Shown here in pieces: positions 1,699 to 35,742 of a stretch of 64,000 nucleotides of DNA; positions within the stretch are counted from its first letter, which is position 1; every line of letters begins with the position of its first letter. The notes under the pieces are model-generated. The model searched no databases. It worked only from the letters and a program-made list of their open reading frames with translations, and was not told where the DNA came from. Source of the stretch: Haladaptatus paucihalophilus DX253 (GTDB lineage Archaea > Halobacteriota > Halobacteria > Halobacteriales > Haladaptataceae); NCBI RefSeq assembly GCF_000376445.1, contig NZ_AQXI01000001.1, positions 776,962-840,961 of the forward strand, in the 5' to 3' direction. A program made the translations under genes and the position numbers.

Positions 1699-6119
<4,421 letters not shown>

Positions 6120-31876: not shown

Positions 31877-32201
31877 ATCAGGTCGAAGAAGAGCGAATGG
31901 GTGTAAGGTGGACTCGACCGAAATGGGATTGGACCGGGATGGGACTTAACCGGAATGGGATTCGGCCGATGATTCGACTTGGCCGATGATTCGACTTGGC
32001 CGATGATTCGACCACTAGCGAGTGGTGACTCGGCCCCTAGCGCGTGACTGGTTCAACACTAGGTTGGGATGGTTTGGCGGCTAGGTCGATGACAGTTCGA
32101 CGGCTAGAGAGAAGACCGTTCGTGCGGTTGCGTTCGGCCGCGACAGCTTCCACACCCCACCGAACCAATAGGATTAACTCGCCAGAATTTGATATGTCGA
32201 A
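31877..32201. repeat. Spacer with degenerate then exact 17-bp tandem repeats
   Basis: No gene is supported here. From about 31917 the sequence repeats with a period of 16-17 bases: three degenerate copies with ACCGGNATGGGA cores, then near-exact copies of GGCCGATGATTCGACTT at 31964-31980 and 31981-31997, and a partial one at 31998-32012. Further on are several GGCTAG-type words with no clear frame. A weak TATA-like GGATTAACTC at 32171-32180 could serve the structured RNA that follows. Confidence 0.75.
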
Positions 32202-32262
32202 CGAAGCAAACCGGGGTATTTGCCGAAAGGCCAGTGTAGGAGCACTGACCCCGTTTGCTTCG
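32202..32262 (+). ncRNA. Candidate three-way-junction structured RNA
   Basis: Fully nested pairing is visible on the plus strand. The closing stem pairs 32202-32217 with 32248-32262: 15 base pairs with one bulged C at 32211 or 32212. Inside are two abutting hairpins: GCC-GAAA-GGC (32222-32231, a GNRA tetraloop) and CAGUG-UAGGAG-CACUG (32232-32247). Only AUUU (32218-32221) is an unpaired junction strand. It sits 14 bases before the ATG of a short ORF and its 3' closing strand can also pair with a sequence touching that ATG. I do not recognise a known riboswitch or ribozyme class. A palindromic mobile repeat is an alternative reading. Confidence 0.6.
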
Positions 32263-32275
32263 AGAGGCTCGAAGC
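32257..32275 (+). promoter_or_regulatory. Alternative hairpin abutting the start codon
   Basis: GCTTCGAG (32257-32264), loop AGG, CTCGAAGC (32268-32275) is a perfect 8-bp stem ending at the base before the ATG. Its 5' arm overlaps the 3' strand of the closing stem of the junction RNA at 32257-32262, so the two folds exclude each other. A purine-rich GAGAGG (32262-32267) that could serve as a ribosome-binding site is partly paired in the hairpin. Confidence 0.6.
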
Positions 32276-32464
32276 ATGTCGAACAACGAACCTTCTTCGG
32301 AAAAACGTATCGCCACCGAACAGACGCTCCTCCGCCTTGGCGCGGTGTCCCCCGAGAACGTGAGTGAAGAGTTACTGCTCGACATTCACGATTTGTTCGA
32401 GGAGCACGGTATCCCCATGCACAGCGTTTCGGTCGAACGCTGGCGCACTGGGTACGTCTGTTAG
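32276..32464 (+). CDS. Hypothetical 62-residue acidic protein
   Basis: A small ORF with normal haloarchaeal codon choice, acidic composition and a predicted helix (LLLDIHDLFEEHGIPM), ending RTGYVC. I recognise no family. It lies immediately behind a structured leader and an alternative hairpin, and is followed by a U-rich tract at 32486-32492 that could terminate transcription. The frame has only 63 codons, so protein status is not proven. Confidence 0.5.
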   Translation: MSNNEPSSEKRIATEQTLLRLGAVSPENVSEELLLDIHDLFEEHGIPMHSVSVERWRTGYVC

Positions 32465-32492: not shown

Positions 32493-33321
32493 AACAGATT
32501 CGCTACGAACAAGACTGTCTCCGTTCGACATTACCGATACCGGTGTAGAGCGAACCTCGAACGCTTCCGTCTGTTCGCGTCGGGGTGGCGTTGGTTTTCT
32601 ATGACTGCAACTACAGACGTCGATGAAACCGCGACCGCACCGCAACAGCCACACCCTCCCCAACCGATTGCGTTCCTCACTCCGAAAGAGCACGCTCTTT
32701 CGTGCTCTCGCTCGCTCCGCTCACGAGAACTTCGTTGCGGTACCTGCGGGCCACGGCCGCAGGTCAGCGAGACGCGACGCGTCTCGCAAGTCTCATCCCT
32801 CGCACGCTTCAGCGGGACGACGCGGCCGAGGATGGCCACGTCGTCCCGCCAGCGCGCGCCACGATGGAACGCCGAGTTGCGTGGAACTGAATCGATTCTT
32901 CGGGCGCGTGCACCAACAACCCCGAGGACGCTCCGTCCGAGGGGTTGCTTGGTTATCACGCGAGGGATGAACGAAACGAAGTGGAGTGAATCGGTTGGGG
33001 AGGGTGTGGCTGTCGCGGTGCGGTGCTGGGTGGGATTGAAAGGGGCCGAACGCTCGCGCTTGCATGGTCGGCTCAGCGGCCACTATCGCGGACCAGGCGG
33101 TGCGGAGAGGTCCGCGATATGTCGGCTGAGCGACCGCGAGCGGGCGGGGGCTTTCGGAGTCAAGTTCACTGTTGCTCCACTCGGAGCATCCTCGCAAGTA
33201 ATCTCATCTCGTAGCGAGCGTGGCGGGGGTGTTCGAGAATTTCGGCACGTCCGTCTCGACTGAACTACGACGGAGAAAACTGGTAAATCGAAGTAACCGC
33301 TTCTCGCTTCGCGTTCGTCGG
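32493..33321. repeat. Hairpin-rich gene-free island with 36-bp inverted repeats
   Basis: No gene is supported in these 829 bases; open frames end in palindromes. The segment 32634-33024 is bounded by 36-bp inverted repeats (32634-32669 and 32989-33024, one mismatch). Inside and just beyond are long stems: GCGAGACGCG-A-CGCGTCTCGC (32767-32787), GCGGGACGACG with CGTCGTCCCGC (32812-32849), CAACCCCGAGGACG with CGTCCGAGGGGTTG (32917-32947, mismatched GA steps) and TATCGCGGACC with GGTCCGCGATA nested in GCTCAGC/GCTGAGC and CGCTCGCG/CGCGAGCG (33051-33142). This may be a non-autonomous mobile or REP-like element. Confidence 0.75.
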
Positions 33322-34542: not shown

Positions 34543-35742
34543 TTAGAAGGTCGTCACGTCGCCGTCGATGGCCCGCTTCGTGATGCTCGATACGTCCGCC
34601 AGTTCCTCGTCCACGATGTCCACGATTTCGGGTTCGATGTCGCTCAGTTCGACGCCTTCCTCGGTGACGACGTGGGCGTCCGCCACGTGCGGTTCGTCGA
34701 TGGGGCGGCCGATTTGCGAGAGGAGGCGAACCCGCATGTCGCGGATGCCGTCCACTTCGGCGACGACGGTTTCGGCAATTTCCGTGCTCAGCAGGTTGTA
34801 AATCTTCCCGATGTGGTTGACGGGGTTCTTGCCGCTCGTGGCTTCCATGCTCATCGAGCGGTTCGGCGTGATGAGACCGTTCGCGCGGTTACCGCGGCCG
34901 ACGGAGCCGTCGTCGCCCATCTCGGCGCTGGTGCCGGTCGTCGTGAGGTAGATGCTCTCGTCGTCGTCGGCGGTGTTGACGTAGACGTTCACCTCGCGGT
35001 CGGTGTACTCGCACGCGACCTGATGGGTGTAATCGCGGACCGCCTCGACCATCGCGTCGTACTCCTCGCGGTTTTCGACGTATTTGTCCACCATCGCGGC
35101 GGCGACGGTCACGTCGATGGTGTCGCGCTCGCGCTTGCCCATGATTTTCACGTCGGGGCCGAGCGCGGGGTTGTCCGCCGCGAACTCGCCGTTGAGCCGT
35201 CGTTCGGCGTTCAGCACGATTTGTTCGGTTTCGGAGAGGGGGGCGTGGCCGACGCCGAAACTCGTGTCGTTCGCCATCGGAACCGTCGCGCCCTCCTCGG
35301 AGAAGACGTCTTGGAGGTCGCCGCTTCCCTCCCCGAGTTTCACGTCGATGATGACGTCACGGCCGACGTCGAGTTCGGGGATGTTCTCGTGGAGGTACTC
35401 GCGCGCGGCGTCGAGCGCCACGGTGTCGGTCGGGATTTTCGTTCCTTCGTATTCCTTTGTCGCGCGGCCGACGATGAGGATGTAGATGGGTTCGACGAGT
35501 TCGCCGCCGCCGAACCGCGGGTTCGAACTCCCGGCGACGAGTTGCGCCTCGTCCGTGTTGTAGTGGAGGACTTTGCCCACGCGGTCGAGATACGTCTGCG
35601 AGAGCGCGCTAGAGACCGCTTCCGCGATACCGTCACAGATGGAGTCGGGGTGGCCGATTCCCTTTCGTTCGACGATTTCGATGTCCTGATCTTCGACCGC
35701 CCGACGGTCGATAGGTTCCACCTGAATGTTCCGCTCGGTCAT
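34543..35742 (-). CDS. mat: Archaeal S-adenosylmethionine synthetase
   Basis: Makes S-adenosylmethionine from methionine and ATP, the cell's methyl donor. The 399-aa protein belongs to the archaeal MAT type, unlike bacterial Met[23 protein letters not shown] (in part), [13 protein letters not shown] and [20 protein letters not shown]. The ATG at 35742 gives the canonical N-terminus [16 protein letters not shown]-like AGTTATAG lies about 25-35 bases upstream on the minus strand. Confidence 0.97.

Follow-up and report, generated by a model that had tools for sequence, protein, structure and literature searches.

Judged from its sequence conservation, the leader in front of a 62-aa gene of Haladaptatus paucihalophilus DX253 is a real, evolutionarily conserved RNA with two mutually exclusive predicted folds, and it belongs to an undescribed haloarchaeal RNA family that is present in over half of the haloarchaeal genera sampled. 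The reading that we consider probable is that of a translational two-state leader under cis-antisense control, whose copy in the window (the whole stretch of 64,000 nucleotides analyzed here) would serve the 62-aa gene. Conservation, both folds, the promoter-like motif and the genomic context were read directly from the sequences, and from these we infer the ON/OFF direction, antisense transcription and processing of the duplex; all transcript data for the family come from the phiH and phiCh1 literature.

The three-way-junction leader RNA lies on the plus strand at 32202-32262. The segment 32200-32278 has a minimum free energy of -35.7 kcal/mol (RNAfold; z -5.4), which none of 200 dinucleotide shuffles equaled in stability, and the wider segment 32190-32290 has a z-score of -4.9. 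The leader scores 99.6 bits with the covariance model R1, of which it is itself one of the training sequences, and covariation is seen in its relatives. Its closing stem P1 pairs 32202-32216 with 32249-32262; the initial annotation had described this stem as 15 bp long with one bulged C, and the fold and the bulged C were borne out, while the length proved to be 14 bp. The two hairpins that it had described inside the stem were both recovered, P2 (GCC/GGC, 32222-32224/32229-32231) with a GAAA loop of the GNRA type and P3 (CAGUG/CACUG, 32232-32236/32243-32247) with the 6-base loop UAGGAG. The rival hairpin P4, GCUUCGAG-AGG-CUCGAAGC (32257-32264/32268-32275), has a 3-nt loop, stands flush with the AUG at 32276, covers the GAGAGG tract and has GCUUCG (32257-32262) in common with P1. 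Upstream on the same strand a promoter block, AACCAATAGGATTAACTC (32163-32180), putatively the BRE/TATA region of the sense transcript, is conserved in type-1 copies, to which the window copy belongs, and is almost identical in most of them (AACCAATAGAATTAACTC). By analogy with the mapped starts of phiH1 T4 and T1, the sense transcript would start at about 32195-32203, at the 5' strand of P1. The ORF which follows at 32276-32464 (plus strand, MSNNEPSSEKRIATEQ...YVC) belongs to a paralogue family in Haladaptatus, and a Pfam search with it gave no match above the cut-off.

This genome has about ten copies of the leader, the one in the window included, and each is placed just before a start codon. 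Nine paralogous copies lie on the contig of the window (the eight further leaders there were found by BLAST or R1), and one type-2 copy lies on contig C4. The paralogous ORFs have MSxNEPSxEKRIATEQ in common and are divergent beyond it; among them are two CPxC zinc-finger-like 50-mers and one ORF with a degenerate CTG start. A degenerate leader with CTG for ATG and a broken zinc-finger ORF (L053:1523-1602; G000:C1:758722) lies upstream, some 50 kb from the window copy. R1, built from 13 leaders, matched in all 9 genomes of the genus and in 13 of the 28 genomes of the family, and R2, built from 21 plasmid/element-type leaders, matched in 137 of 392 Halobacteriales genomes and 54 of 95 genera. 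No match outside the order was found in a sample of 295 genomes from the phylum, all 16 positive genomes being inside it; exact-pattern matches in bacterial contigs resemble chance matches and were left out of the family. The leader is also present on plasmids, on viral contigs (seven of them from IMG/VR) and in the isolated halovirus BJ1, and the protein of the type-2 operon is carried by 13 Haladaptatus plasmids. This operon (L021-L058), conserved and usually present in one copy per replicon, encodes a 23-aa ORF, a 164-aa MASFDEKPNGG protein, and zinc-ribbon-like and coiled-coil proteins. That the RNA is of no known class, as initially annotated, was upheld: Rfam 15 gave no match above the gathering threshold in the window and, at a relaxed threshold, chance matches alone (E 3-5) at ten diverse loci, and a search for tRNA or tmRNA found none. 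We found no earlier description of the leader family in the literature searched, which is a part of the whole. With its covariation-level support, it is a structured leader family of at least 54 genera and isolated viruses which is absent from Rfam.

A covariance search across haloarchaea, proposed at the outset as one check, found compensatory changes in all four helices, P1, P2, P3 and P4. For P1-P3, the alignment A5 of 56 distinct diverse leaders, which was fitted to the model and hence favours it, has double changes in 14 of 19 pairs, amounting to 112 cells, a value that none of 500 shuffles reached; when registers were slid, pairing collapsed to 35-45%. The structure-free MAFFT alignment of type-2 leaders, with 5 pairs and 8 cells (0/500), gives a weaker result that agrees with this one. 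P4, the start-codon hairpin sharing GCUUCG and ending at the ATG at 32276 that the initial annotation had recognized, has 84 double-change cells in 91 distinct leaders with strands free of gaps, again with 0/500 shuffles reaching that number; as the leaders are related by descent, none of these shuffle counts should be taken as probabilities. In the same 91 leaders pair 6 is GC in 42, UA in 28, CG in 8 and AU in 5, and pair 7 is GC in 42, CG in 11, AU in 8 and UA in 7. These two pairs lie outside the strand common with P1 and are therefore evidence for P4 alone. Drift in the lower P1 strand is mostly compatible with wobble pairing (GGAGC, GAAGU, GAGGC), and it is still paired in 99%, a number biased upward because the parser used pairing itself to place the 5' strand in register. 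All three strands have changed together in L095 (GAGAGC/GCUUUC/GAAAGC), L116 (GAAAGG/GCUUUC/GAAAGC) and BJ1 (GGA.AGC/GCUGUC/GACAGC).

The two states are nearly balanced. With either the lower part of P1 or P4 forced in 114 leaders, the energy of the P1 state minus that of the P4 state has a median of -1.35 kcal/mol and the states are within a few kcal/mol in most leaders, the two values for the window copy being -35.7 and -33.8. This balance is partly inherent, because both GAAGC strands vie for one GCUUC, and the cost of the P4 loop is paid by the two extra pairs of P4. The distance from P4 to the AUG is 0-1 nt, and SD-like 4-mers (from AGGAGGUG) occur in 48 of the 114 P4 loops versus 18 expected by shuffling. 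Since P4 abuts the AUG, the P4 state should block initiation and the P1 state should permit it. With GCUUC paired to the 5' GAAGC, P1 would be closed, the region before the AUG single-stranded and any SD-like purines exposed, presumably the ON state; with GCUUC paired to the 3' GAAGC, P4 would form as a hairpin flush with the AUG, presumably the OFF state. Gating of the start codon by a choice of two predicted folds is supported, because both folds covary, have one strand in common and are near iso-energetic. P4 as an intrinsic terminator was ruled out, as no U run follows it. By the usual view haloarchaeal mRNAs are mostly leaderless, and structured leaders have been described as an untypical means of controlling their translation (PMC4983044).

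Such a choice of folds is also how translational riboswitches work, and the initial annotation had proposed one. The start-codon choice itself stands, by covariation, one common strand and near iso-energetic states, and the leader resembles the Rfam classes of translational riboswitches in this gating; it differs from them in having no Rfam match, and the metabolite ligand did not find support. A ligand-binding riboswitch of a new class, in which the three-way junction would be the aptamer and a small molecule or ion would stabilize P1 and free the start codon, is in our opinion unlikely. It would agree with the two conserved, mutually exclusive folds of similar energy and with the location of the leader at the 5' end, and a synthetic riboswitch that masks SD and AUG does regulate in Haloferax (PMC8241225). 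However, no conserved unpaired ligand-binding core was found: conserved residues are mostly paired, the junction J1/2 and the P2 loop vary in sequence and length, and there is no large invariant core outside the helices. The downstream genes are moreover of unrelated families and situated on mobile elements rather than in one pathway, and the signatures of an antisense promoter and of a divergent regulator speak against a metabolite switch as well.

The first of these signatures lies inside the first codons. In a set of 53 ORF starts that are less than 65% identical, the nucleotides +26 A (40/53), +29 A (43/53), +33 Y (51/53), +36 C (41/53) and +37 G (50/53) are conserved over a background which is flat elsewhere. 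Protein conservation is not the explanation, since +33 and +36 each fall on the third base of a codon and codon 13 specifies different residues (A, D, E, G, V). The motif is partly protein-coding as well, and it has a weak TATA. Its minus-strand sequence is CGnnR..TYWT, which matches the register of the haloarchaeal BRE (CGAAA) and TATA (TTWT) elements (PMC4983044). In the window the putative antisense promoter is located in codons 9-13 (32300-32312, minus strand) and has 7/7 motif positions, with the TATA-like TTWT opposite 32301-32304 and the BRE-like CGnnR opposite 32308-32312; the predicted antisense start is opposite about 32273-32275. A weight matrix built from the sense promoters of these loci peaked on the minus strand with the antisense start +3 from the AUG (z 4.8), and antisense starts lying 2-4 nt ahead of the AUG were the three best among all offsets. 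A motif score of 6-7/7 was found in 42 of the 53 ORF starts, from which the motif had been defined, versus 15 of 1166 control frames. Among viruses, which took no part in that definition, the score is 6/7 in the T1 ORF of phiH1, 6/7 in phiCh1 and 7/7 in BJ1. As a sequence motif only, the family has an opposite-strand promoter that would place the antisense start at the AUG, and antisense transcription over the leader is what we would expect from it. A TATA-free reading of the in-ORF motif as an RNA element was rejected, the match to BRE/TATA being the more economical account. Also rejected was a fifth hairpin within the ORF (+17 to +40): it is strong at some loci, but its mean stem score is only a little above that of shuffles and no better than further downstream. 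The loops of targets of antisense RNAs are marked by YUNR, and this was found in the P3 loop of 47 of 102 leaders against 10.7 expected, an excess that owes part of its size to shared ancestry; in the window copy, with its UAGGAG loop, no clear YUNR is seen. If the conserved nucleotides are a promoter and not protein, this may explain the N-terminus that is common to unrelated small ORFs.

The second signature is the genomic context. At 42 of 50 non-redundant mobile-type loci a manual count found a divergent small ORF (67-158 aa) about 100 nt upstream, which is either a phiH-repressor/MarR-like wHTH protein (Pfam MarR_2) or a member of another family, for which Pfam gave no match. Mobile-type promoter regions contain operator-like palindromes (mean score 6.0 versus 4.3 in shuffled ones), and in type-1 promoter regions none were above shuffles (3.9 versus 4.0). 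The window copy has no divergent regulator and no operator, hence an antisense transcript would there have no coding role. With its constant promoter and with leader and antisense motif intact, the window module appears to have been captured by a chromosomal small-gene family. Genes behind the leader are unrelated in family (SWIM, RAMP-like, many without an assigned family), and a tblastn search for the SWIM protein in an annotated phage collection found none. The operons at L064 (G130) and L076 encode proteins like those of the RAMP superfamily (PF03787; the match, with E 0.0016, does not reach the curated cut-off), possibly a stand-alone CRISPR-effector-like cluster on a haloarchaeal element. 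A two-state leader with no antisense partner, responding to temperature, to salt or to a protein (which could be the divergent regulator, the small protein encoded downstream or an RNA-binding protein of the host), is improbable to our mind, even if the conservation of the divergent regulator and the CxxC-type motifs of many first ORFs, which could bind RNA, fit with a protein. First ORFs are of several unrelated kinds, type-1 loci keep the leader without the regulator, and none of these factors would explain why nucleotides +26 to +37 are nearly invariant in ORFs that are unrelated.

Halovirus transcripts are in accordance with a cis-antisense leader. The early-lytic T4 transcript of phiH1 was mapped to start at 34556, back-to-back with repR (PMC4284463), and the best R1 match in the 50-kb stretch of phiH1 begins exactly there (19.2 bits, E 0.009); the best match in phiCh1 is at the orthologous place (16.8 bits). 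Both T4 leaders fold as three-way junctions (z -4.9 and -2.9) and resemble the family in that the junction is 5'-terminal at the start site, the winged-helix repressor gene repR is divergent and a later strand, GAAGGC, competes with P1; the phiCh1 leader also has the conserved CGGUGCUGG..CACCGACCGCG stretch. They differ from the family in having the first ORF about 80 nt further downstream, and their covariance-model score is weak. The mapped start of phiH1 T(ant), 38732, is the base before the AUG of the T1 ORF. According to a review, this antisense RNA exposes T1 to host RNases, and the cleavage removes the ribosome-binding sites (PMC4284463). The target of T(ant) is the T1 leader, whereas the covariance-model match is the T4 leader. 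The T1 leader, compared by eye, is like the family in being structured and in having GAGC directly before the AUG that could compete with the outer stem, but it is 151 nt long with another internal fold, and the models detect no homology. In the ORF6/ORF7 region of BJ1 (AM419438 3547-3600; L203:748-801) R2 scores 20.5 bits (E 0.0014), P4 is GCUGUC..GACAGC-AUG, and the leader has, as in the family, a divergent winged-helix gene on one side and on the other an operon that includes a SWIM gene; it differs in its longer P2 and in the annotation of ORF7 from an upstream GTG. That GTG, at 3547, sits inside the leader RNA, and ORF7 more likely starts at the ATG that immediately follows P4, at about 3598. 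A look-alike in the pleolipovirus Halfgib1 (L204:14748-14853), divergent from a winged-helix gene, has by eye a P4 (CCGUA/UACGG plus GCU/AGC) that runs up to the AUG of HfxHg1_095; R2 is silent there and the in-ORF motif is 4/7. P1 begins at the 5' end of the transcript in both T4 and T1 of phiH1, as it would if the leader were a stable 5'-end structure mainly protecting mRNA or aiding the expression of mobile genes, with P4 incidental; this is very unlikely, because the P4 pairs outside the common strand covary through all four Watson-Crick types.

The cis-antisense reading would join these elements as follows. In most members, on plasmids, proviruses and viruses, an operon begins with the leader RNA and is divergent from the gene of a small DNA-binding regulator. 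A second, antisense promoter in codons 9-13 of the first ORF would produce an RNA which begins opposite the AUG, spans the leader from end to end and could extend into the regulator gene, which is on the same strand. Sense and antisense RNAs would meet through the U-turn loop of P3, and once they are paired the ribosome-binding region would be masked or cut away, which is what has been reported for phiH T1/T(ant). In the window copy the regulator is missing, and the leader, the two folds and the antisense motif have been kept. Plasmid and phage cis-antisense systems such as CopA/CopT and hok/Sok have a structured 5' leader, an antisense RNA from the opposite strand and a YUNR U-turn loop; the family differs from them in being archaeal, in having the antisense promoter inside the first codons and in the shared-strand switch at the AUG. 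More tentatively, this may be a general archaeal early-gene module that has been missed, composed of a bistable start-codon leader and a first-codon antisense promoter reading into the divergent repressor gene in the manner of PRE, the establishment promoter of lambda. Haloarchaeal viruses, plasmids and integrated elements that are not related to each other would have this module in common, and small genes of the chromosome would have captured it. The older work on phiH antisense RNA would then be tied to a general module, the leader would help to locate, in haloarchaeal genomes, the operons with which mobile elements begin their expression, and a lysis/lysogeny decision by RNA switching in archaeal viruses becomes a directly testable question.

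The idea of a mobile element, a structured repeat or MITE flanked by a target duplication of 9 bp, initially suggested because ATGTCGAAC is present at both 32194-32202 and 32276-32284 (which was confirmed) and in keeping with about ten dispersed copies, can hardly be maintained: promoter, leader and ORF start are one unit common to the copies, an ORF was present behind every copy examined (a few short or degenerate), compensatory changes extend across the order, and neither a direct repeat flanking every copy nor an insert without an attached gene was found, the 9-mer pair being exact solely in the window copy and decaying in relatives. A separate MITE-like element of 391 bp with 36-bp terminal inverted repeats of 97% identity is present in the window at 32634-33024; it has 70 full or partial matches in the genome and adjoins the paralogous copies L002, L004 and partly L007.
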